DNA of 64,000 nt, from the NCBI GenBank assembly GCA_022984795.1, contig JALIHJ010000006.1, positions 124,001 through 188,000 on the forward strand. Direction: 5' to 3'. This stretch comes from Fabrea salina (taxonomy: Eukaryota > Ciliophora > Heterotrichea > Heterotrichida > Fabreidae). A program made the position numbers and the translations under genes. Below, one piece after another: positions 19,200 to 42,298 of the stretch (its first letter is position 1; every line of letters begins with the position of its first letter). The notes under the pieces were generated by a model, which had not been told where the DNA came from, did no database searches, and saw only the letters and a list, made by a program, of their open reading frames with translations.

Positions 19200-22100
19200 A
19201 TGGAAAACAGCGTTTGCACAGGCGACCTTATAACTTTTTACATCGAAGGAAAAGGGTACCTAGGAATGGGCCCTGTTGAGTCTAGTTCTCCCCAAAGTAA
19301 CTTTGCTCCGAAAATGATCAACAAGCCAGACAGGATGACTTTTCCCAGCAATTTCGCTACACTGTGTGTGTTTGAAATTCTTCTGGTTTACGACCACAAA
19401 ACTAAGGGTTCAAATCGTAATTTTTAGTTAGTTTCTTACGGTGAAGCAATAGCACTCAAGCACAAAGCCTCTGGAAGGTTTTTAGGACTCTCGGACATCA
19501 CCAGCAGTTCTGCCTCTGACAAGTTCATTTGTTGTCTTTACGAGAACTTTAACAAAAACTGCCACTTAAGCATTACTCCGCGCTTTAAAATGAGAAGTGA
19601 AGGAGAGCAAATTTACTACCAGGACAAAATCATAATTTCGGACAAATCAGCCGAAGAAAACTACATTGGGTATTCTGTTAAGGACTATTCCATAGTTTCC
19701 GAAAACAATTTAGGCGAAGGCTGGAAGATTGAATGCTTCACAAAGTATGATTCTTCTCAAAAACACTTGCTGAAGGGAGGGGACTTTGTAAGGCTTTTCC
19801 ACAAAGAAATTGAGGGATTCATGGTAGCTCGGGAAAACGACTTGCACATAAGAAGTGGAAGGAACTCTTTAGCAAGGGTTCTGCAGTTTATGTATGAAGA
19901 CATGCAGCCTTTGGTGGGCGTAAGGATAACTTCTTCGTTTAAAGAGAAAAATGAAACCAACTCAGTCCTTTCTGTGTGGCAGATAGAAAACGAAGAACTT
20001 AACTCAGGAGAACCTATCGAGTGGGAAGAGCCTTTCAGACTGAAGCACTTAGTGTACAATTCTTACTTAAGAGTGACTTACACGCAGTCTTTTTTGGACA
20101 AAAATAACCTAATGTACACCCAAACTGGCGAACTCGTTACAAAGGACGGAAGTCCCCTGCCAGACCTCAACTTTGAAGTAGAGAACGCAAAGGGATTTAT
20201 TGATTTGCTGAACGCAAAGGCAAGAGGAGTAGTAGACGAAGACAACTACACTTTGAGTTTCACTAAAAACTACCAAGACCCAAATACCCTTTTCGAAGGA
20301 GTGTCTATTGCTGGACAGCAAGTGTCTGACTACGTTCCTGTGAATGGTTTGATAAGAATCAGACATAAAGAAACCAATGCTATACTTAAGTCAGAGGACT
20401 CAAGCACCTTTAAACTTCCCTCAGCCCAGAAAAATAATTCCTCTTACATGTACTGGTTTGGCGAAATCCAAAACCCTGAAAGCTTAGAAGAGGACAAAAA
20501 AGATGATTCAGATAAATCCAGCCACACTGGCTCAGGCACAGGTTCAATTGCAGGTTCGATCACCTCACAAGGGACTTACCGGTCTTTAGGTACCTTTGCC
20601 GAAAAAGAACTTAAAGAAAAGGACAAGTTCAAGAAACTCCAGCTAAGTAGGCAAGGAGCGGACCAGCACGTGTTCCTTGTAAGGCATTGCTCAAACATTA
20701 CCTACGACTACTTCCTGTATGCTTCAAGCATGGTTAAAGAAATAAAGGACTTTTTACAAGAACTCAAAGAAAAGAGTCAGAACGGAATCATTATGGGGAG
20801 TTCCAAAGAAGAAAAAGCAAAAATAAAGGATATTATTGACGTGCTGGAACTGCTCAATAGCTTTTTGAAAGGCAGCATAAGTTGGAGTCAGCACGACGAA
20901 AACAACACTGGAACTAAAAGCTGGAAAAACAAAGCTGTGGAGGAAAAGAAAAAGAAAAACGACAAACTTGCCACTCGCCCAATAAAGAGAAGACAAAAGG
21001 TTTTGAAAGAACTTTTTTTACTGGAAAATTTACTGGGGATTATTGAGTTCTTCTGGAACTCCTCTGTTTTCGGGAAGAACATCAACGAAGAGTCTTTAAA
21101 CAGCGCAAACAAGTACCCCTGGCTACTCTGCAAGAAATGTCACTCCCTTGTTAGAGAAGTAGTTATAGGCAACAAAAGTAACGTTTCAGTGCTTATTGAG
21201 CTAGGCTCCGTAGATATGATGCTTCAGCAAATTTCTACTGGGTGGAATCCTTGTGTTTCGGAAATCTTTGTAGCTGCAAGTGGTAGCAGTGTTGGGTCTC
21301 AAGGCTTGACTAAGCACGATCTTAAGCAAATTGTAGATCAAATCCACGAAGGACTTTTACAACGCGAGTATCCACACAAAATAATTGACTTTTTAGCTTC
21401 AATTTGTGCACCTGCAGGTAAAGGAGACTACTTGCTTCAAAAGTGGGTGCTTGAGTTACTTGTAGGCGGGCAGATTGGGGCTCAAGTGATTCCTTCAAGC
21501 ATGATTTTCCACACCAAAGTGGACTCAAACAAAGAAAACCCCGAAGAAACTCGTGTTTTGATTCTGCTTGACAACGAAGGGTTTATCAGGCCACCTTACA
21601 TTGCTTCTAAAAGAGAAAAAGAGATTAAAAACGAAGACTACAAAGACGAGTTCTACAATGAAGAAATGTACAAAGAGATCGAAAGAAAGTGGATTCCTTT
21701 AAATGAGTTTTTGCCTGACAACTTAGGCATCTATAAAGCTCTTGGGGGTGAGGTGTCCTACGAGTTCAGTGAACTTCCAGAAAAGAAAAGCGGACACCAA
21801 GTTGAGTTAAGGGACAAACAAGTTTTGTACTACAGAAGTATCCTTAACCTTTACAGGGCTCTGTGCACTTCCCAGAACTCAAAATGCCAAAAGATCATTT
21901 CAGGACTTGTCCCAGTAGACCACATTCTGGCAGTGCTGAACTCCAGAGAAATCTCTGATTCAGACAAGCAGCTTTACCTAGAACTTTTTAACGAACTCTA
22001 CGCCAACTCAAGTCCTTTAGGGCTTTTGCCTAAGTCTTGTTTGCCAAGCATACTTATTTGGAAGGGTTCCCAGGACTTGCTTAAAGGAGAAGCTGAAAAC

Positions 22101-25100
22101 GAAGTAAACCAAAGGATCTTTTCAGAAAACTGTCAACCCTACATAACTACTATGATTGGGGACTGGGTTACCAACTGGGAAACTGAAAAAGAAGCTGAGA
22201 TAGAAGCTATTTCCACAATAGAAAGTGTCCTTGAAACCGAAACACTTAGCATCCAAGAATACATTTTCAACCAAAGACTCAGGCTTTACAACTACATGAT
22301 AAACACCTTTGTTGGAATTCTGAAAACTTGCACTAAAGAAGGCAGTAACTTAGCTACTCATGTGTTCAAAAGCAACCCACAGCAGCATGAAAGCAAATGG
22401 CATAACGAAATTGGGTACTGGTTGTCCTTTATAAAAGTTTTTAAAACTTTACTACTTAGGAACTTTTTCGACGACGAATACAACATGGACATACAAGGAA
22501 TCAACGAGTTTCAAGAAAGAAAAGAAAAAATTCCAACTTGCAGTGAATACGAAGAACTACTGGCACCAGGAGACTCAGGAATCCGGTTTTGGGGACTTGT
22601 AGCTATAGACCCCTTGCTTGAAAGTGACGACTTAGCCTGTATCAGCAACATCATTACTAACATACTAATTCAGACCTCACCTAGAAAGCACTACAAGTAC
22701 ATTCCAAACCCCACAGTAGACCAGTACAACAAGGTCTTTTTGAACCTTGAAGAAGGAAACATAGGCCACTTGCTATGTGACATGAAAACTGAACTGCTTA
22801 AAGTGCTGAATATTGTTTACGAACTAAGACAAACAGAAAGGGTGTTTTGTTTGTGGGACGAGTACTTCAAAAAACTCTACTCAAGAAGGTTCAAGAACTT
22901 TGACTACATGAAGTTGCAAATTGAAAGTTCCAAACAAGAGATTTACGAGGTGGACCAAAAAACACTTCAGTACATGCAACAAGGATTCAGGTCCTACATG
23001 GAAAAAAACGTTGCAAAGAAGTTCCAAGTAGTTCCGAGTGAGTCAAATTCCTTTGCACTGAAAAGTTACTTCAAAGACATGCTGAGGTCATTTAAAGAAC
23101 TCTGCAGACATGATAGGTCACTTATAAACGCAGTGGGAAAGTTGTTTTATGAAAACCAAGAAGAAAAAAAGAAGCTTTCTTCAACTTTACTAGATATGAC
23201 TCTTTACCAAAGGTCAACCCTAGTAGTAGAAGCCACAAACATGCTGCACTGCCACTTCAGTCAAAGAAAAGAAATTCAAAGGATCTTTAACGAAGCTACT
23301 TTGCTTCTGGATGAAACTTACTACAAGATTTACAGACTGTTGTTGAAACACCAAAGCAGACTAATATTCTTAACGCAGAACTTCTCCAAGGTTCCTACGA
23401 AGCCAGAAGAAATGATTGAGTTTTACGAAATATTCAAAGCTGGGAACCCTTTGCTAGACCCTGAAGTTAAAACTAAGCCTGGCTTAATTGACTTGTGCTA
23501 CACAGGCTACGACTTGCGAGACACAGAATACAGTGTGTTTAGAAGAAACAAGTACCTTTACAAAGGCAAATCAGTTTCTAAAAAGAAAAAGAAAAACCTA
23601 GCTAAAATCATTGGTTTGGGACTAGGTAAAAACAAGGAACAAATCATAAGACTCAGAAAAAAACAGAAAAAAGAACAACTGCAAGAAGAAATTGAAACTT
23701 CTAAACTCAAAGACTGTGTAGAAGCTATTGACAGACTAAAAGTAAAACCAATGGTTGGCAAGCTGGACATTTGGGCAAAAAACCAAGAACTCATCAAAAC
23801 TGTAGGCCTTCACAACAAAATCCTTAAACTTATAGGCAGGATTTTTAGCCCTTCTTCCAAAATGCGGCCTTCAAAAGACCCTGACCAAAGGTACTGCCAG
23901 TTAGAAATGCTTAAGGTTTGTTATGAGTTTCTGTTTTACTTTATTTGGGACAACGGAGAAAACTACGTAGAACTTACCAAAGAAAAAGTCCTTGAAATGC
24001 TTTTCACCCAAATGGAACTAGACTCCTCTGTTGTGAAGTTGCTTACTGAAATCATGGTTGACAACGACGAAGCCAACAACATGGTAACTGAAACTATGAT
24101 TCAAAACGTGGTGAAAAAACTCAACCCCAAAACTTGGAGTATGGACAGTGTCCAAAAACCTGAAAAGGACGAGCAGCCAAACTTTTTGTCTAACATAAGG
24201 AACCTTGCTAGTCACTCCCAGCCTGAAATTAAAAACCCTCCTTACCCAGTAAGGTACATTTCTTTATTGAAAACTTTAGTTGAGAGTGACATTGGACCTA
24301 AACCTAGTAGACAAAAACAAGTAATCGAAGTACTTATGAGAATTCAAAGTGAAGACCCTGACTCTTTTGACCACTTGTTGTTAAAGAACGTTAACGGGGA
24401 CTACGACTTTGAGTTTGCTTTAAAGCTGTTTGAGGAATACAAAGAAACTGTAATGAAGGACTCCAAGAACCTAACAAAGGTACTGGACCCCAGAGAAGAA
24501 GAAACAGAGTTCAACTTCCACTTAGAGTTTTTGGACTTACTAGGGATGTGCACTAAAGGAGCCAACGTGATTACAACCAATTTTTGCAGAAGTTTGTATG
24601 CTTCTCCAGACTCAATAGTTAGACCCATTGCGTCTGAGCAAGTTCCTTTAAGTATACGTATAGTTCTGACTCGTTTTTTGCACGGAGTTTACTTTTCAGA
24701 CAAGAACCGAAAGATCTACCAAGAAGAAAAAAGCCAAAGTATCTGGCACATGTACAACTACCTAGACTTTAAAAAGATGTTTGTGAACTACGCAAATGAC
24801 TTGCTTGCACTGAAAGGTCTTTTTGACAGAAAAAGCGCCATTGAAAAAAGAGAGGAAGAAAAAGAAATCATGGAAGAGGACCAAGAGGAAGAAGAAATCG
24901 AACTTAAAAAACAAATGAAGCTTGACAAAAAGAACAAAATGAAACTTAGGCAAAGCAAAGCTCTGGAGTCAGACTTAGGCAATGGCTTAGTTGCCAACAG
25001 TGCTTTTCAAAGCATAGACAACTCAACAGAAGTAGAGGAACTAAAGGTATTTTTGGAACTTGAACAGTACTCTGACTTTGTGTTTGACGTTATGCTACCT

Positions 25101-28100
25101 TTTCTCCAGGAACTTCTTGAGCACGACTTTGAGTTTATGCCTCTCAACGTGTTTGGGGACCAACTTGTAGTTGAAAACATGCCTTGGGAAACTTACCAGT
25201 CTTCTGAGATTCCAGACTTTTCGCATGCTTACGACCTTAAGTACCTGTTTAGAGTGTTGGTCTTCCTTAGCGTAAGGTTGTCTTTAGAGGGCGAAGTGCT
25301 TCTTAAAGAAAACTGGAGAGAGGGCTTAAAAGACTTTTTAAAAGCAATCATGAACTTTATAAACCGGCACTACGACGACGAAAACTCTATTTTGGAGGAA
25401 GAAGAAGAGTCTGCAAAGCAAATGCAAATAACTATTATTTCCTTGGTCAACAAACTCGACAGTGCAGAAATGAAACTAGAAGTTGAGGGGTCTATGGAAC
25501 TCGACAAAGAACTTGTCCGGGAAAGGAAAAAGCAAATGCTCATTAAAGAAATGGTAATTCCTGAGTTCATGAAGTCTGTGAACAAACTGTCTATGTCTAA
25601 CGAGTCCTACTACATAATTCTTACCTCAGAGCTCAGAAAGAGCTTACAAGACTCAGAAGTGCAGCCTGAGTTCGCTGAGTACGTAAGTATTCTTTTGAAG
25701 AAACTAGAAAAACACATTTACTGGAAAGAAGGTATTGCTGAGTCCCAGGTTAAAAAAGGCCCCAGAGACATAGAGTCCAGAAAACAACTGGAGAAAAGAG
25801 CAATGGCAGAAATGGAAGTAGAAGTTACTTTGCAAACTAAAGAAAAAGAAGACGAAGAAGAAGAAAAAATACGACAGGAAGACATCCCTATGGAAGAAAG
25901 CAACCAAGAAGAAAAGATCCTTAGTGACTCAGATTCTCCCCATTCAGAAGACGAGCACTTCAGAAAAAAGAACCAAACTGCAACTCCTGAAGACCCCTAC
26001 AACTTCAAGCCCAAAAGAGTCAGTTTCCGGAGTTCAGGGTCTCCTTTTAAAAACAGGTCTAGTCAGAACCTTTCTGTCGTCGCTTTCAACCAAGTGGACA
26101 AAAAGGACTTTATGCGGTGGACGGGGTTCGGAGGGAAGTACTTATTCAGGCTAGTAGAGATACTTGAAGACATCACGGTAGAAGGAGAAGCTGAAGCAGA
26201 CTGTTTCCACCTCCAAGCTCTGCAGTGCTTGGTTACTGAGCTAGACCAGTCAATATCGCCCCACTCTCTAAGGAAAAGACAAATTGCTCTTAAGGAGTTA
26301 GGAATGGTAAGCATGCTTATGTCTTTGATTTCGCGTGCGAAGGAGCCCGAAAAACTTTCTAAGTACCTTGAAAAAATCCTACCTGAAGTTGTTAAGTTAG
26401 GCGCTAACTTGCTTGCTTTAGGGATTCAAGAAATTCAAGACAACTTTATAAACTTGTACTACGAAGCCTGCAGGAAACTAGACCTCAAACACTCCTTTTT
26501 AATGGGGATAAAAGCTTTGCTCAAAGAAGCCAGACTCAATATCAAGTTCCTAAACACTCCTAAAGGCGACACTTTCATCACTAGGATTCTTCCCAACTTG
26601 CTTCATTTCATTAAAAACCTGTGCGAAGGGCACCATATTGCTACTCAGGAGTTCTTAAACATCCAGCCAGAGTCCCTTATTAACATAGACTTGATTACAG
26701 AGCTCTCTTACCTGTTCCAGGCTTCGTGTGATAAGCTTTGCAAGAACTTCAGTTTCGTTGACAACGTTTACTTCGAAGAAAAAATGAGTCCTGTCTTGTT
26801 TACTGACTTAACTAAGAAAAGAAAGTTGATAGCTTGGCACAAACAAAACTGCAGAGTTCCTAATGTAAGTGACATCAAATTTTGTTCCCAAATCTTAAGA
26901 ACACTCAGTGAAACAGTTCAGGGACCCTGCGTCAGAAACCAGTTAGCTCTGACTAAAGCTAGGACTTGCAGAAGCATGCATGTTATTATGGAGTATATTG
27001 GAACTTTCTTTTACAGAAAAACTGACAACAAGGGCAATTTAAGGTGGTCCGGCCACGGAATGGAAGCTTACTACCAGTACTTGGCATCAAACCCTCCACA
27101 GGACGACATTGAAACCATCCAAATTACTCAGTTCTGCCAGCACATGCGCTCAATTGCAAACGACCCCGAGTCAGACCCCACTCGAAAGCACATTTTGATA
27201 AAGCACCAAGGGCTAGAGTACTTGAGTTTAGTAGAGGCTCTGGACAACTTTGAACAAAACTGCTTAGTGTTTTTGAACTCTTTGCTAGAAGGTTCACAAG
27301 CTTCCACAACAACTCTGTCGACAGGAGAAAAGATCAGAGACATCCAACTAATTGAGATTCCGACTTACATCCAAAACTCAGTAGATGAAGACATTTTGAT
27401 CCACAACCTCCACAACTACTGGAAAACAGCACGCTTAGACAAGTTATCCACACTCAAAGCTGAAATCAAAGAAAACGACGAAGCAAAGTGGATTTACAGA
27501 CTAAGAAGGAAAGTGTTTCTTTACTACTCGTTTTTGACTTTGCTCATCGATAAAGACGAACAGGCAAAGAACGTTATAAAACCCAAACTTTTAGAGTGGG
27601 AAAGAAAGTACAACATCAGTATTCAGAACGTAGTGGGCAGAATCGAAATACAGAACCCAAACCAAGAAATAGAGGTAGTGTACTTCCCCTTGCCAGCAAT
27701 AGTGAGTGTGTTTTGGGGAAAACAAGTAGTTAAGGAGAAAAGGGAGGACTTGCTTTACAAAGTCAACAGAGACAACCCTGAAGAAAAAGTCATGGACTTC
27801 CAAGACCGTTCCCTTGACATCATTACACTGATCTACATTCTCAAGCAAATTTACTTAATGCCTTTTAAGTACGGAGTATTTGGAAGCCTGTACAAGCAAG
27901 TGGTTGAAAAAGCCAGGCTCTGGAACTTTATTTTAGTGCTGCTCACAATAGCTTTGAATGTTTTGTTAGTGATTCTTTACGAGGAAGTGGTGGACGGGGA
28001 AATAAAGTACAGGTACGACTGGGGAGAATTTGTTTTATTTACTTTAGGCAGAGTGCATGCGTTCTTCTCAGTGATACTATTTTTGTCCTACACCTTTATG

Positions 28101-29255
28101 AACGGAATCTTAAATGTGAAAATTAAGATGGAACGTAAAAACAGCAACATAGTTAAAATTCCAAACTACGTACTGAAGATTTGGGGCACTATTGTAAAGC
28201 TGCTTACTTGCTACAAGTGTTTTTCGTGCTTGTGCCGGAGAAGAAGGAACAACTTCATCAGCAGTCTGGTAGACACTTTGTCTAAGTCAGTTACTAAGGT
28301 CCAGCTTCCTAGCTTTGTGTGGGTGCTGTGGTTTTACTTTTCGAGTTCCTCCACAATATACTACTTGCTGTTTATGATTATGTCTTTTCTAGGCGCTTTT
28401 TACGACCACTCCTACTTTGCTTTTCACTTAATCATTCTAATCAGAGGGGTTCGCTTGATTGGTTATGTGCTGAGTTCAGTCACTAGAAACATAGGGCAAG
28501 TTATGGCAACACTGGTGCTGGCACTTATTGTTTTGTTTTGGTACACAATGATAGCCTTTAACATTGACAAGTTCAGGGGCCAGTACTCCTTTGAGGACCG
28601 AATGGCTTGTGACTCCCTTTTAGACTGTTTAAGGACTCACGTTGACTACGGGTTTACAGTTAACCCTTTTTGGAATGACGGTTTAGTTCCTGCTTCAGGG
28701 ATATTCTTTAACTTCACTTACTTCATTATTATCAACCTCATTATGACAGCAATAATCAGTGGTATCATTATTGACACCTTTTCAGAAATGAGGGCCAACA
28801 GCCAAACAATCGAAGACGACATTTACGAAAGGTGCTTCATCTGCAACATAGACAGAGACGACTTCGAAAAACTAGGACTGGACTTTAACAAGCACATTAA
28901 AAAAGAGCACAACATGTGGCAGTACTTGTTTATTCGGCTGTACTTATTCAACACTGACCCTACTGAAATGACTGGTCAAGAGACTTACATCTACGAAGCC
29001 TTTAAACAAAAATCAACTCCTTTCTACCCCATAAAGAAAGCCATGGTCATAGAAGGCAGGAACAAACAGAAAAAAGACCTACCGAGTTTGTTTTTGAAAC
29101 TAGACAAACTAGACACCAAAATTGAAAAAACCCAAGAAGAACTTGAGTACGAAAGAGAAAAAACTGAAGAAGAAAGCAAAAAGCTAAACGCACAACTCGA
29201 AAAGATCATTACGAGACTTGACCAAATCTCACAGCAAATCAACTTAAGTAAGTAG
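19200..29255 (+). CDS. Giant IP3-receptor/ryanodine-receptor-like Ca2+ release channel
   Basis: Two exons (19200-19416, 19432-29255) give 3346 residues. Ligand-binding Ins145/MIR region at about 1-300, RIH-type armadillo blocks through about 600-2800, six membrane helices at about 2900-3205, then the conserved zinc linker (CFICNIDRDDF plus HIKKEHNMW, about 3208-3240) and a C-terminal coiled coil. The zinc linker matches IP3 receptors closely. Pore helix S6 ends in SGIIIDTFSEMR as in the family. The selectivity filter, GGGVGD in animal receptors, is replaced by a segment TVNPFWNDG near residue 3150. Paramecium has a varied family of such CRC channels. Expected on endoplasmic reticulum, alveoli or contractile vacuole membranes. 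It is longer than IP3 receptors (about 2700) and shorter than ryanodine receptors (about 5000). Confidence 0.9.
19417..19431 (+). other. 15-nt intron (IP3-receptor-like gene)
   Basis: GTAATTTTTAGTTAG, phase 1; retention gives an in-frame TAG. Removal joins KGSN to LSYGEAIALKHKASGRFLG, a typical MIR-domain strand pair. Confidence 0.9.
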
Positions 29256-30521: not shown

Positions 30522-31130
30522 TTAAGAACATATAGTTTTTGACAGTGTTAACAGTTGCTTGGCAATGTTACTTTGAGTTTTGCGCTTGCAGAACCCAGGC
30601 ATTTTGCCACGTGGGTTGTAATCCACAAGATAAACAACCTTGCACTTACCTTCCCCTGAAGGCTTGATCTCAAACCCAGACAGGTTCATTTCAGCCTTTA
30701 CATTTTTGGTGTCGTTTTGATAGAACTCTTCGTCCTTAAGACTTTTTTCAATAATGTAGTAAGTTCCTTCTTCACTCCTTTGAGTTTTTTGAGCTATCAG
30801 CATTTCTCTGTTGGACATCCCCCAAGTGTGCTTTAGCAATATGTACAGCATTTTCATGTTTTCAATTTCCTGCTTAACCTGGACCTGCCTTACGTTGCTT
30901 GTCCAGCGTTCTCTTAAGCTAGGGTCTCTTAGTTTGTTGAAAGCTACTTCTGCACTGCAGTCAAACTCCATTTCTGACTTGGCACAGTCTAAGTTTTCTT
31001 TGTGGAGTTTGTACACCTTCATGCTTTTTTTGTGTGAGGTTTTCCATCCTTCGAGAGAAATGGTGTTTTTGAACTGCTCTAGTGCTCCTGTTAACTGATT
31101 GTTGGCTTTTTCAACCCAGTCGGATTCCAT
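30522..31130 (-). CDS. START-domain lipid-transfer protein
   Basis: 202 residues, essentially one START domain. Landmarks are FDCSAEVAFNKLRDPSLRERW early, MSNREMLIAQ in the middle and KVVYLVDYNPRGKMPGF near the C-terminal helix, all in family order. No signal or membrane segment, so it should be cytosolic and carry a lipid between membranes. Stand-alone START proteins of this size resemble StarD2/StarD7/StarD10 types. The two ceramide synthases in the window suggest, but do not show, a sphingolipid ligand. Divergent from the next gene by 39 bp. Confidence 0.82.
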   Translation of the reverse strand: MESDWVEKANNQLTGALEQFKNTISLEGWKTSHKKSMKVYKLHKENLDCAKSEMEFDCSAEVAFNKLRDPSLRERWTSNVRQVQVKQEIENMKMLYILLKHTWGMSNREMLIAQKTQRSEEGTYYIIEKSLKDEEFYQNDTKNVKAEMNLSGFEIKPSGEGKCKVVYLVDYNPRGKMPGFCKRKTQSNIAKQLLTLSKTICS

Positions 31131-36473: not shown

Positions 36474-37718
36474 TTACTTAAAGTTTTTAATGTCCCTTTT
36501 GATCTCCCCTACAACTTTAATGGAAACATTAGGAAAGACTTTAGATATGCTAGGCTCGATTTCTTCAATTAGTTGTTGGGCTATTTTGGTCTGGTGGCTT
36601 ATTTGGGAGTGGGTTTCTTTGGCGTAAGCTCTTGAAGCCTCTTCGTTCTTTTTGAGTTCCTTGAGTTCGTTGTGGAGTCTCTCAGTTTGGCAAGACTCAA
36701 GTTTGCTAGCAATTCTTTCTAGGGCTTGGGGTTGCTCGTGCAGCAAAATAAGTTCCTGAGTGTCTTTGAAAAGCCCAATAATGGGCTTCACTGCGTTTTG
36801 GTACTGTTCTTGAGTGTCAGCAAAGCCTTCGAGTTCGACAAGCTCGTTCAAAAGAGCTGCTCTCACTTCTCGGGACTCCAAAGGCAACTCTTGGTACTGA
36901 GTTTGCTCTCCTGACTCCACTGTTTCGATAACCCAGTCTCCCTCAGGTTCCACTTGCAGTTCCTGAACTTCTTCTTCCAGAGAAACAGGAGGTGAGTACT
37001 TGTCCTTTATGGACTCTAGTTCTTGAGTTTGTTGGTAGTTCTGAAGTGACTCTATTGTAGGCAAGTAAACTGAAGACCCGTGGTTTTGCTCAGTTACTTT
37101 TTTATACAAAGCTATTAAAGACTTAAGTGACTCTTCTTTAAGAGTAAACAAAATCCTTAAGTAGATTTCAGGAAGTTCCCTAGTTTTAGCTTTGAGTTCT
37201 TGTCTGATTTTTTGGCCAGTGACTTGGTGTTTTTTGCAGTTGTCTGAAAAGAGTTTTTGTTGTTTCTGTATGCTTTCTTTTATGCTTTGTTCTCTGTAAA
37301 TAAAGTCTTTGAGTTGTTTTTCGCAACTTTTGATCTGCGACTTAAGAGCTGGAATTTCGTAACTCCCTAACTGAACTAGTTGTTTTGCACAGTCTGCTAT
37401 GTGCAGGTTGTCTTTTTTGTACAACTTAACTAACTTGTTCCAGTCGTATAGAACTTGGGAAGACCAGTTTCCCAGGATAGTTTTTCCTTTTTCAGCTTCA
37501 GAAGAGTTCAAAAGTTTGTTGTAAGTGTTTTTGGCTTGTAAGTACCCTGAAGACTCTTCTTCAAGACAATCCTTTAACTCAGAACTTTTCAAGCTCTGCA
37601 CAAGTTCTTTTTGTCGGGCGTAGATTCCCCTGAGTTGCTGGCCCCAGGTGTTTTTGAGTTTTTTCCTTTGAAGTAGCCACTCGTTGACTTGGTCAAACTT
37701 AATATCGATGAGTTCCAT
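36474..37718 (-). CDS. CDK5RAP3: CDK5RAP3 (C53/LZAP), UFM1 E3 ligase cofactor
   Basis: 414 residues. The N-terminal half tracks CDK5RAP3 closely: FDQVNEWLLQRKKLKNTWGQ, then GNWSSQVLYDWNKLVKLYKKDN, SYEIPALKSQIKSCEKQLKD and HQVTGQKIRQELK. A coiled coil fills the last 120 residues. CDK5RAP3 binds UFL1-DDRGK1 at the ER and directs UFMylation to ribosomes, and acts as an ER-phagy receptor. The acidic linker (about residues 235-275) has one tryptophan, in GDWVIE, where other C53 proteins carry several IDWG-type Atg8-binding motifs. UFL1 is encoded 2.6 kb downstream of this gene's start on the same strand. The protein is shorter than the human one (506). Confidence 0.85.
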   Translation of the reverse strand: MELIDIKFDQVNEWLLQRKKLKNTWGQQLRGIYARQKELVQSLKSSELKDCLEEESSGYLQAKNTYNKLLNSSEAEKGKTILGNWSSQVLYDWNKLVKLYKKDNLHIADCAKQLVQLGSYEIPALKSQIKSCEKQLKDFIYREQSIKESIQKQQKLFSDNCKKHQVTGQKIRQELKAKTRELPEIYLRILFTLKEESLKSLIALYKKVTEQNHGSSVYLPTIESLQNYQQTQELESIKDKYSPPVSLEEEVQELQVEPEGDWVIETVESGEQTQYQELPLESREVRAALLNELVELEGFADTQEQYQNAVKPIIGLFKDTQELILLHEQPQALERIASKLESCQTERLHNELKELKKNEEASRAYAKETHSQISHQTKIAQQLIEEIEPSISKVFPNVSIKVVGEIKRDIKNFK

Positions 37719-39050: not shown

Positions 39051-40313
39051 TTAGCCTTCAAAAGCTTTCAGAACTAAACTTGCATAACCTGTTCCGTCAA
39101 AATTTATTGAGTTGCACACTACTGCTTTCAGCTTCTTTTCACGAGCCTCAGTCAAGTAGTCTAAAGACTTTCCTTGTGGCTTCAAAGGATCTTTGAGGTT
39201 AGTAATTGGGGGCAGCACTCCAGTTTTCAAAGAGTGTGCAGCCAAAGCAACATTCACTGATGAACTTGAACCCTGCATGTGGCCTAGTCCTCCTTTCAAA
39301 GCAGTTACTGAAGGTCCTTTTTCCCCAAACACTTTAAGTATGGCGTTTGCTTCTCCTTCGTCAAATTCTAGGTGGCCTGACGCATCCGCAAACACTGCGT
39401 CTACATCGCTAGGGTTCAGTTGGGCTTGGTGCAAAGCTCTTTTCATGCTTCTTTCAAGTCCTCTTCCTTGTTTAGCTGTTTCAGTTCCAGCTTCACTCAG
39501 CATACTGTAACCAGCTATTTCAGCATAAATTGGGGCACCTCTTTGTTTGGCGTGGTCTAGGTCTTCAAGAAGAATTGCACCTCCTCCAGTGGACAACACC
39601 CAGCCTTTTCTGCCGTTGTCAAAGGGCTTCACAGATTCACTAGGGTTCGAGTCTGCTTCTGTGTTGTATCCGTAATTGCCTTTTATCAAGGACTCAAACA
39701 CTGCTGGGTCTAAGTCGTGCTCTGCTGCACCGGCTATAATCACTTTAGAGTCTCCAACTCCTAAGGTCCTATAACTGTCGCCTATTGCGTTAACTCCTGT
39801 GCAGTTGCCTGCGCAAAAAGAATTCGAGAACCCGCAGATTTTTTTGGGAATTGAAATAGTTCCAATGCACATGCTTACAATAACTTTAGGCAAAACAAGC
39901 CTTTCAAGTCTTTCATAACCGTGCTCAACTACAGCTTTCTGGGCGTAAAGTGAGTCAATGGAGCTGGTTCGGTGAGAGCCAAACATCACTCCTGTTTGTG
40001 TGATTTCTTCCTCTGACTTGGGGTCCCAGTTAGCATCTTGGAGTGCCATGTTAGCAGTTGAGGCGGAGTAAACGTGGTACCCTGTTTTAAGGGTAGGAAC
40101 TATCTTCATCCACTTTCCCCTTTCAAATCCCTGAACAGCTCCTCCTGTTTTGACCTTGACCTTTTCTTGGTAAGGCATGTCATCTGGCGTGAGGATTCTT
40201 AAACCTGACTTTTTTTCCAGCAGTGACTCCCAATTGGACTCTACAGTAGACCCCAGTGGACTTACCACGCCCAGCCCCGTTACTACAACTCTTTTAGGAA
40301 GTAATCCTGCCAT
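39051..40313 (-). CDS. Beta-ketoacyl synthase homologue resembling a chain-length factor
   Basis: 420 residues, a full thiolase-fold ketosynthase opening with KRVVVTGLGVVSPLGS. In FabF and KS-alpha enzymes the nucleophile is the Cys of ACTSG. Here the region reads FCAGNCTGVNAIG; an ungapped alignment puts Asn170 at the nucleophile and Cys171 one place later. The first catalytic His (AHGTST motif) is replaced: VFADASGHLEFD, so Asp310 sits there. The second His region is kept as GGLGH (His345). The C-terminal SFGFGGTN motif is altered to SINFDGTGY. VFADASG...D..EA.AI..VFG is very like the KS-beta/chain-length factor of bacterial type II polyketide synthases. It may be a non-catalytic partner, a decarboxylase, or a modified mitochondrial ketosynthase. 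Confidence 0.85.
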   Translation of the reverse strand: MAGLLPKRVVVTGLGVVSPLGSTVESNWESLLEKKSGLRILTPDDMPYQEKVKVKTGGAVQGFERGKWMKIVPTLKTGYHVYSASTANMALQDANWDPKSEEEITQTGVMFGSHRTSSIDSLYAQKAVVEHGYERLERLVLPKVIVSMCIGTISIPKKICGFSNSFCAGNCTGVNAIGDSYRTLGVGDSKVIIAGAAEHDLDPAVFESLIKGNYGYNTEADSNPSESVKPFDNGRKGWVLSTGGGAILLEDLDHAKQRGAPIYAEIAGYSMLSEAGTETAKQGRGLERSMKRALHQAQLNPSDVDAVFADASGHLEFDEGEANAILKVFGEKGPSVTALKGGLGHMQGSSSSVNVALAAHSLKTGVLPPITNLKDPLKPQGKSLDYLTEAREKKLKAVVCNSINFDGTGYASLVLKAFEG

Positions 40314-40342
40314 TAATTATAACGGATAGCAATATACTACTA

Positions 40343-42298
40343 TTAGATATTAAGGAACTGGCAAATGTCTTCTACTTTGCTTTGCATGCTTTCAGCTAGC
40401 TCGGGTTCGTTGACTTTTGCGTTTTCAATAGCCATGCTTCCGAACTCCGTGAGCATATCTCCTCTGGTTTCATTAGCGTAAATGTCTCTAAGAATTTCAA
40501 GTCCCCATACTTCTGGTGGGAGCTCGACTGCGCTTGCAAGTGCATCAACAAGTTTCACTCTGACTCCAAAGTAAAATAACTCCACAAACTGACTTAGGTT
40601 GGCTGAGTTCCTGGCACTTTGTTTGAGTTCTTGTTTGTGTTTGTGTAAAATAGCCCTTTCAGTCTTTTTGTCAAGGGGCTTCAAGTAAACCACAGGAATG
40701 TTTTTGGTGTTCTCTATGAGTTCTTCAATAAAGGCTTCAGGTTCTTTTTTAGAGATTTTTTCTTGCAAAGAGTTAAATATTTCTTTGAGGTAGTCTGGAA
40801 GTTTGTTTATAAAGCCTTGTCGTTGGTTAGACTGAACTAATGGCAAAGGAAACCCTTGGTTGGCTACTTGCACTGCCAGTAATTCGTTGAACACCTCTGA
40901 AACTAGTGCTTTGGTAAGGTGCACTTTGATAGGTTTAACGTTTTGGTACTTTTTTTGGATGCTTGTAAGTGACTTGCACAGGACTTGCAAGTAAGTGACT
41001 TTTTGTGTTAGTTGTTCAGTGTCGATTTGGTTGGTTTGTTTTTTTTCTTTTTGTTTTTGAAGAATGAGTTGGCTTAGTTTAGGGTGAATGAGTTCAGCAA
41101 ATTCTTCGTACAAGTCTTCATTCTCGCCTAGAAACCGTTTGGCTTTTAGAACCCTAACTATTTCTTCTTGATTGATTACAGGCGCAGCTGTTTTCTTAGA
41201 CTTAGGAGTTTTGGTTTCTTCAGCTAGGTCTTCAACTCTTTTTTGGAAGTGACTCATTGCTTCTTGCAGGAACTCTTCTTTGAACACAAAGTGCCCAATG
41301 CAGTAAAGGTCTTTGTTTACAATGCTTTCAAAGTCTTCTTCTGCAATGCACATAGGAATGTCTGCATCCTCATACAAGTCAGACATGGTTTTTCCAGCAG
41401 TGGCTTCTGAAATGTCGTTCCTGACTCTTTCTATAAGAGAAGGGTGCACATAGGCAGAGTGTAGGTACTTGCCTCCTTTAAGTTCTTTTTCAATAATGGG
41501 TTCAACGCTTGAAGAAGAGGGCAAGTCCATAACTCTTCTAATGTGTTCGTACTCTATAAAAGAGTTCGACTGGTAAAAAGACTGGATTTCTTGCTTTACG
41601 TTTTGCTGGTACACTGCTGGAGTGAAGGTGTTGTTTTTAAAAGTCCCTTTGACTTGTTTGGTCTTTATTAACTCGTTTATTTGTTGTGCAGTTAAGGCAG
41701 AGTTGAAGTCCTTGAGCTGTAAGGGTTTAGTTGCTCCTCTCAAGGTTCCTCTTAGCTTGCACAACAGTCTGTCCATGTAAACGTTTGTGTAAAGAACGTT
41801 TTGGTCTTTGAACTGCCCTTGAATGATAGACCCCATTCTTCTGCTTATTTTGTCTTTGAGAAAGTCAAGACTTAAGGAGTACTTGTAAGTAAGTTCTTTC
41901 ATGGAAACTTGGCCTACTTCCTCTAAGTGCTCGTTTATTTCTTGGGCTAGTCCGTCTAGGTAGGTGTCTGAAATCAGCTGTCCAGTCACAAAGTGGATGG
42001 ACTCCTTTTCTTCAGCTACCTTCAAAGAGTACTTTTCAACAGCTTCCACACTCACGTTTAGCACTGAAGGGAGTTCTAGAAGATTCACTCTGCCTAGTTG
42101 GTTAACTTTGATTTCTATTTCTTTCTGGAGCCTTTTAGGCGTGAGGTATTCTTTGCCCGAAGCTGTGAGGACTAGTTCTAGTCCGTACTTGCTGACTAGT
42201 TTGTTAACTATTTCGACTACGTTTCTGTCAGACAACTTTTGGCCCTTAGGTTTGTTTTGGACTTGGAGTAACTTAGCACGCAAAGCACTTAGGTCCAT
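40343..42298 (-). CDS. UFL1: UFL1, E3 UFM1-protein ligase 1
   Basis: 651 residues. The N-terminus matches UFL1: LSDRNVVEIVNKLV, GKEYLTPKRLQKEI, GRVNLLELPSVLNV and GQLISDTYLDGLAQEINEHLEEVGQVSM in family order, a series of winged-helix units. A Lys/Thr-rich linker (about residues 360-385) and a helical C-terminal half follow. UFL1 with DDRGK1 and CDK5RAP3 transfers UFM1 to targets such as ribosomal protein uL24 at the ER. It has no RING or HECT domain, as expected. Somewhat shorter than human UFL1 (794). CDK5RAP3 lies on the same strand 2.6 kb away. The ATG is 6 bp after the stop of the PI3-kinase gene. Confidence 0.92.
   Translation of the reverse strand: MDLSALRAKLLQVQNKPKGQKLSDRNVVEIVNKLVSKYGLELVLTASGKEYLTPKRLQKEIEIKVNQLGRVNLLELPSVLNVSVEAVEKYSLKVAEEKESIHFVTGQLISDTYLDGLAQEINEHLEEVGQVSMKELTYKYSLSLDFLKDKISRRMGSIIQGQFKDQNVLYTNVYMDRLLCKLRGTLRGATKPLQLKDFNSALTAQQINELIKTKQVKGTFKNNTFTPAVYQQNVKQEIQSFYQSNSFIEYEHIRRVMDLPSSSSVEPIIEKELKGGKYLHSAYVHPSLIERVRNDISEATAGKTMSDLYEDADIPMCIAEEDFESIVNKDLYCIGHFVFKEEFLQEAMSHFQKRVEDLAEETKTPKSKKTAAPVINQEEIVRVLKAKRFLGENEDLYEEFAELIHPKLSQLILQKQKEKKQTNQIDTEQLTQKVTYLQVLCKSLTSIQKKYQNVKPIKVHLTKALVSEVFNELLAVQVANQGFPLPLVQSNQRQGFINKLPDYLKEIFNSLQEKISKKEPEAFIEELIENTKNIPVVYLKPLDKKTERAILHKHKQELKQSARNSANLSQFVELFYFGVRVKLVDALASAVELPPEVWGLEILRDIYANETRGDMLTEFGSMAIENAKVNEPELAESMQSKVEDICQFLNI

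Follow-up and report, generated by a model that had tools for sequence, protein, structure and literature searches.

A mitochondrial-type ketosynthase with an altered active site in the ciliate Fabrea salina and its candidate role as a non-condensing partner subunit

Results

The KS1 gene and its active site

The DNA analyzed here is a stretch of 64,000 nucleotides (the window) from contig JALIHJ010000006.1 of the heterotrich ciliate Fabrea salina, and the gene in question, termed KS1, encodes a ketosynthase (KS) of the KAS type. KS1 is a minus-strand open reading frame of 420 codons (39051-40313) that runs from ATG to TAA without an internal stop. Both Pfam halves of the protein scored well above their cut-offs (ketoacyl-synt, 83 bits; Ketoacyl-synt_C, 74.7 bits), the closest solved structure by sequence was the mitochondrial KAS (mtKAS) of Arabidopsis (1w0i), and the predicted structure, calculated for a single chain, had a pLDDT of 91.9. 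Nearly the whole KAS fold is kept. The active-site residues were read against mtKAS 1w0i and FabF and in a 43-row alignment, and the FabF counts refer to 56 aligned FabFs from 80 FabF loci kept in prokaryote genomes. KS-beta stands for the chain-length factor (CLF) of bacterial type II polyketide synthases (PKSs). The features are as follows:

39051..40313, minus strand: KS1, intact stand-alone KAS-type ketosynthase with altered active site (single open frame, Pfam, alignment, predicted structure)
39804..39806, minus strand: Asn170 codon, aligned with the nucleophilic Cys and followed by that of Cys171 (39801-39803); Cys in 56/56 FabFs
39384..39386, minus strand: Asp310 codon, aligned with the first catalytic His, within VFADASG; His in 56/56 FabFs, Asp in 4/4 KS-betas
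39294..39296, minus strand: codon of Lys340, the conserved active-site Lys, kept; Lys in 56/56 FabFs
39279..39281, minus strand: codon of His345, the second catalytic His, kept; His in 56/56 FabFs, Arg in 4/4 KS-betas
39099..39101, minus strand: codon of Phe405, the gate Phe, kept within the altered loop NFDGTG (FabF: GFGGTN); Phe in 55/56 FabFs
40314..40342, no strand: 29-bp gap between the KS1 start codon and the UFL1 stop codon upstream of it (from the sequence)

Instead of the Cys-His-His(+Lys) set of mtKAS and FabF, KS1 has the set Asn/Asp/Lys/His. A sequence-only reading of this DNA had claimed that the ketosynthase fold is kept while Asn-Cys stands at the nucleophile, the first His is replaced by Asp within VFADASG and the GFGGTN motif is changed. 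All of this held: the fold was confirmed by both Pfam halves and the predicted structure, Asn170-Cys171 was recovered in the alignments to mtKAS, to FabF and across the 43 rows, the first His is Asp310, and the GFGG gate loop with its flanking Asn has given way to NFDGTG. That Lys340, His345 and Phe405 are kept had gone unmentioned. The role of the GFGG gate loop in KAS enzymes is addressed in parts of PMC7138838.

A misalignment by one residue, which would restore the Cys, was ruled out, as the nearest paralogue, KS2 (see below), reads AGNASG and has no Cys at the +1 position. Such a shift is also opposed by the predicted structure, in which Asn170 is the second residue of a helix spanning residues 169-185; in KAS enzymes the matching helix begins at the nucleophile. 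By sequence, KS1 has lost the residue that forms the acyl-enzyme, which makes condensation by KS1 alone improbable.

Like mtKAS (Arabidopsis 1w0i; human OXSM 2iwy/9n50), KS1 is a stand-alone protein which matches the fold over its whole length and keeps the Lys, the second His and the gate Phe. It differs from mtKAS in the exchanges Cys to Asn, first His to Asp, GFGGTN to NFDGTG and GEG to STG and in having no presequence, and the identities in structural alignments were 28% to the human and 34% to the Arabidopsis enzyme. The FabF proteins, mostly alphaproteobacterial, have the same fold and were the top matches in prokaryote genomes (80 loci kept, with identities of 30-35%), but the full Cys/His/Lys/His set, present in 56/56 of those aligned, is missing in KS1.

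Six ketosynthases in the Fabrea salina genome

The genome (18,328,466 bases in 103 contigs) was searched for paralogues with KS1 and with PF00109; the six-frame search ignores introns and the counts are lower bounds. At least six KAS-type ketosynthases were found, all of them stand-alone open frames and each on a different contig. Three further PF00109 matches were thiolase-like by eye; apart from the six, the PF00109 search found neither KAS-type nor type I ketosynthases in the genome. The five paralogues of KS1, with the residues at the positions of the nucleophile, the first His, the Lys and the second His, are:

KS2, contig 37: Asn/Asp/Lys/His, as in KS1
KS3, contig 57: Cys/His/Lys/His, intact
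KS4, contig 25: Cys/His/Lys/His, intact
KS5, contig 53 (L005:1504-2661): no Cys, Glu at the first His, Lys, His
KS6, contig 47 (L006:1498-2556): gap at the nucleophile, Asn at the first His, Lys, His

The family consists of two intact (KS3, KS4) and four altered members (KS1, KS2, KS5, KS6), and the annotation "beta-ketoacyl synthase" is probably incorrect with respect to activity for four of the six. A search for a second ketosynthase with intact Cys-His-His had been named beforehand as a check, and KS3 and KS4 answer to that description. The greatest divergence is seen in KS5 and KS6, which have deletions at alignment columns 139-158 and 139-155, respectively. KS6 in addition lacks four columns at the nucleophile turn, and the residue assigned to the nucleophile site of both proteins varies with the alignment. 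An S-x-G sequence was observed in KS1-KS4 (window 39051-40313 and L002-L004) where both mtKAS rows, KS5, KS6 and most FabF rows have GEG; as a shared mark it is weak, since some FabF rows carry SEG, GDG or SDG.

KS1 and KS2 share the altered residues at an identity of only 39%, and the GFGG loop is changed in both. This would also fit a new activity or binding role of KS1, in which Asn-Asp-Lys-His forms a different active site or a pocket for an acyl group or another ligand. We regard this as improbable, as we know of no enzyme with an Asn-Asp-Lys-His set and KAS folds without the Cys are mostly partners or starters.

Origin of the Fabrea salina ketosynthases

A maximum likelihood tree was calculated from the 43 rows, which comprised the six Fabrea salina proteins, two mtKAS, four KS-alpha, four KS-beta and 27 FabF. 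The KS-alpha and KS-beta rows were from Streptomyces plasmids, and the FabF rows represented 25 of the 80 loci plus two from plasmids. The six Fabrea salina ketosynthases formed one clade (support 100/99), which was sister to the two mtKAS rows (100/96). These were themselves weakly united (86/9), and KS-alpha and KS-beta grouped together elsewhere in the tree (95/94). Within the six-gene clade, KS1 paired with KS2 (100/99) and KS3 with KS4 (99/86). When KS1 was the sole Fabrea salina row, it still joined the two mtKAS rows in a quick tree, with a value of 95 in the Shimodaira-Hasegawa-like approximate likelihood ratio test (SH-aLRT). The six sequences are best explained by duplication, in the heterotrich-like ciliate lineage, of a KAS of the mitochondrial type. 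In viral contigs, no close relatives were confirmed.

The sequence-only reading had named a place inside ordinary mitochondrial KAS together with an intact triad as the outcome that would speak against its comparison with KS-beta; KS1 is indeed placed beside mitochondrial KAS, but its triad is not intact.

The end branch of KS1 was the shortest of the six (0.97 vs. 1.14 and 1.27 for the intact copies). Taken together with the altered residues shared with the 39% identical KS2, this argues for a function for which the altered site of KS1 has long been retained. The lost catalytic residues might alternatively mark a gene in decay, which we consider very improbable in view of the intact 420-codon frame, the short end branch, the residues shared with KS2, a codon usage like that of the neighboring genes and the very compact surroundings.

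Local likeness to KS-beta

VFADASG and the residues following it had been described as strikingly similar to KS-beta. This likeness is real over residues 304-329 (VFADAS/EANAI), which are the most KS-beta-like of all 26-residue windows of KS1 and have a mean identity of 55% to the four KS-betas vs. 29% to the 27 FabFs and the two mtKAS, but it is only local. Over the whole length, KS1 is 28.4% identical to KS-beta, 32.9% to FabF and 32.3% to mtKAS. At the same place the intact paralogues show part of the likeness as well (KS3, 46% to KS-beta vs. 36%; KS4, 42% vs. 29%), and a mosaic gene is therefore not needed to account for it.

KS1 shares several features with KS-beta (actinorhodin CLF 1tqy_B and the four Streptomyces plasmid KS-betas): the KAS fold without an active-site Cys, a carboxamide residue at the nucleophile (Asn in KS1, Gln in 4/4 KS-betas; the Gln of KS-beta had been stated in the sequence-only reading), Asp for the first His (VFAD, 4/4) and intact KS relatives within the same genome. 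It differs in that the second His is kept, in that it does not adjoin KS or ACP (acyl carrier protein) genes, the other KSs being on other contigs, and in being a eukaryotic protein on another branch of the tree. Constraining KS1 and KS-beta to one clade cost 47.8 log units (p = 0.0025 in the approximately unbiased (AU) test), and the constraint KS1+KS2+KS-beta cost 36.1 log units (p-AU 0.0039). The idea that KS1 is a KS-beta by descent was rejected by the tree and by these tests. Uptake of a true KS-beta from bacteria by gene transfer, for which the identity over residues 304-329 and the Asp at the first His might be cited, has next to no probability given the tree position, the AU results under the model used, the retained second His, the finding that over its whole length KS1 is less similar to KS-beta than to FabF, and the neighbor-like codon usage. 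Judged from these comparisons, the likeness of KS1 to KS-beta is one of analogy, not of descent.

Surroundings of KS1

The convergent gene downstream of KS1 ends 4 bp past it. As the upstream gap is only 29 bp long, there is no room for an exon encoding a mitochondrial presequence; the protein starts at the fold, without a presequence. Import into the mitochondrion without one is possible. The codon usage of KS1 resembles that of the neighboring genes, which are those for UFL1, PI3K, a coiled-coil protein, CDK5RAP3 and a major facilitator superfamily (MFS) protein; among them was no KS partner, ACP, ketoreductase or cyclase. CDK5RAP3 (36474-37718, minus strand) and UFL1 (40343-42298, minus strand) lie less than 6 kb apart on the same strand, with KS1 and the coiled-coil gene between them. 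Both proteins belong to the UFM1 E3 ligase complex as subunits. Elsewhere in the window, a 3221-codon open frame (19590-29255, plus strand) resembles, by eye, a channel of the IP3-receptor/ryanodine type.

Contamination and a recent transfer from bacteria were rejected as sources of KS1 on the basis of the neighbor-like codon usage, the location on a 339-kb contig among eukaryotic genes and a 15-nt intron in the malonyltransferase gene of this genome. This gene (L023:1501-2373), the one gene for a malonyl-CoA:ACP transacylase that was found, contains the intron GTAATTGCCATCTAG, which keeps the frame and adds an in-frame TAG. In the window, 15-nt GTA..YAG words numbered 64 on both strands vs. 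44-58 for words of 11-14 and 16-20 nt, which is no clear excess.

Other genes for chain building

Profile searches of the genome gave no type III PKS (control positive 4/14) and, with PF08545, no FabH (control positive 10/14). For the TcmI-type cyclase PF04673 no match was found in the genome, and the control likewise had none, so that this negative carries no information. Polyketide_cyc2 (PF10604) had three matches, two above and one below the cut-off; the latter is a START-domain protein (30522-31130, minus strand; START, 68.2 bits) about 8 kb from KS1. Seventeen of 28 candidate ketoreductase-like short-chain dehydrogenases/reductases were scored, none of them above the cut-off, a result that carries no information. 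At least one phosphopantetheinyl transferase and at least seven ACP-like genes were found, and a second model gave the same seven places for the latter.

The absence of FabH from these results implies that acetyl-ACP would have to come from elsewhere, and KS1 and KS2 could supply it as malonyl-ACP decarboxylases, since both have a carboxamide at the nucleophile, which favors decarboxylation. The KSQ starter domains of modular PKSs, with which they would be compared, carry Gln at the nucleophile within type I proteins and keep both His residues. KS1 shares with them the exchange of Cys for a carboxamide residue, but it has Asn170 rather than Gln and, as in KS2, Asp at the first His (Asp310), so that it does not have the KSQ set. 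Moreover, a Cys-bearing KS can start by itself, the actinorhodin KS/CLF being described in a passage of PMC12664062 as decarboxylating malonate at the KS cysteine. On balance, a starter function of this kind has little to recommend it.

The DSL serine motif is present in four of the seven ACP-like proteins. The other three (L020, L021, L022) lack DSL, two of them reading GLSD, and may be structural, as is the ACP of Tetrahymena complex IV. All seven have an Arg/Lys-rich start with 4-5 basic and 0-1 acidic residues among the first 18-20, and judged from this composition of the leader they look mitochondrial. KS1, KS2, KS4, KS6 and the malonyltransferase begin at the fold; in KS3 it is preceded by no more than about 11 residues and in KS5 by no more than about 9. 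Either the KSs are imported without a presequence or another carrier was missed.

A structural or moonlighting role was considered, in which KS1 would be a dead KAS homodimer within a large, e.g., mitochondrial complex and take no part in chain building. Enzyme homologs have been adopted as scaffolds in the respiratory complexes of several organisms, and an acyl carrier protein is part of Tetrahymena complex IV, as stated in part of PMC10227065; the segments lost in KS5 and KS6 and the gap at the nucleophile turn of KS6 could likewise reflect structural reuse. KS1 itself keeps almost the entire fold together with Lys, the second His and the gate Phe, and it has neither a presequence nor room for one. 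No respiratory-complex name occurred among the best 60 of the 125 (KS1), 112 (KS2), 119 (KS5) and 135 (KS6) matches to solved structures, a comparison that covered these four proteins and whose lists give no organism, and the words "ketoacyl" and "oxoacyl" are absent from the main text of two descriptions of the Tetrahymena respirasome. A structural role appears unlikely, though it deserves to be kept in mind.

Discussion

We tentatively propose, as the most likely mechanism, that the mtKAS-derived KS1 acts as a non-condensing subunit and forms a pair with KS3 or KS4, much as KS-beta does with KS-alpha, a reading inferred by analogy to which we give somewhat less than an even chance. KS3 or KS4 would supply the Cys-His-His half of a heterodimeric ketosynthase, and KS1 would be the non-catalytic half that shapes or lengthens the acyl pocket and perhaps also shapes the docking site of the ACP, in the manner of KS-beta with KS-alpha. 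KS2 carries the same Asn and Asp and could replace KS1 in this role or serve as a specialized partner. Such an arrangement would have evolved independently in a eukaryote rather than having been inherited. In bacterial type II PKSs, an active and an inactive KS form the obligate heterodimer KS/CLF, and the growing chain enters a channel at the dimer interface, according to the respective parts of PMC12664062. Two intact and four altered discrete KSs would be the expected look of a KS-alpha/KS-beta system that arose anew from mtKAS. The earlier suggestion of a KS-alpha/KS-beta-like pair gains from the intact KS3 and KS4 in the same genome and loses its KS-beta ancestry; it survives as an analogy.

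Several observations weigh against this proposal or the history behind it. The KS paralogues are all on different contigs, KSs and ACPs may reside in different compartments, and KS1, whose predicted model consists of one chain, could be a homodimer with another job. KS3 and KS4 alone joined mtKAS together with alphaproteobacterial FabF, with no starred link to mtKAS alone, and long branches weaken the details inside the six-gene clade. KS1 and KS2 share a long inner branch (0.69), which indicates fast change at some time. Finally, the tests leave room for one as well as several losses of the Cys, with p 0.361 for a single clade of the four altered copies and p 0.339 for KS1-KS4 as one clade.

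A heterodimer containing KS1 might help to build either a polyketide, for instance the precursor of a pigment, or a fatty acid of the mitochondrion. Blepharisma, Stentor and Maristentor are known to contain hypericin-type compounds, and the polyketide pathway has been credited with some ciliate metabolites, both as given in parts of PMC7356801. Expanded PKS genes were described for haptorian ciliates in a study whose expression comparison, in the part concerned, used Fabrea salina as outgroup (PMC11077807). Among the literature matches listed, with few subscription papers or preprints, there was nothing on ciliate KS-beta-like proteins or heterotrich pigment genes, and no paper on "fabrein" was found in the literature search. 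As the six KS genes are the only condensing enzymes found (KAS, type I, type III), they are, by elimination, candidates for the pigment skeleton. A bolder version of the proposal, for which we see only a slim chance, would be that heterotrichs evolved a nuclear-encoded, discrete-subunit type II PKS from their own mtKAS, convergent with that of actinobacteria even in the carboxamide at the nucleophile and the Asp at the first His, in which heterodimers of KS3/KS4 with KS1/KS2 build the skeleton of hypericin-type pigments.

Active and inactive discrete KSs are already known to pair in bacterial type II PKSs, and chain-length-factor domains are known in eukaryotes inside multi-domain polyunsaturated fatty acid synthases, which are of type I. 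The main text of the review PMC12664062, from 2025, nowhere contains the stem "eukaryot-". If our proposal is true, the KS1 system would be a second, independent origin of the two-protein KS arrangement, this time from mtKAS, and the use of an inactive KS half to extend the range of products of a KAS dimer would be something that evolution can repeat. The idea of a KS-alpha/KS-beta-like pair has now become testable with named partners. If Fabrea salina makes a hypericin-type pigment by a polyketide route, the six KS genes are the only condensing enzymes found for it, which narrows the enzymes for heterotrich hypericin-type pigments to a six-gene short list suited to single knock-down.
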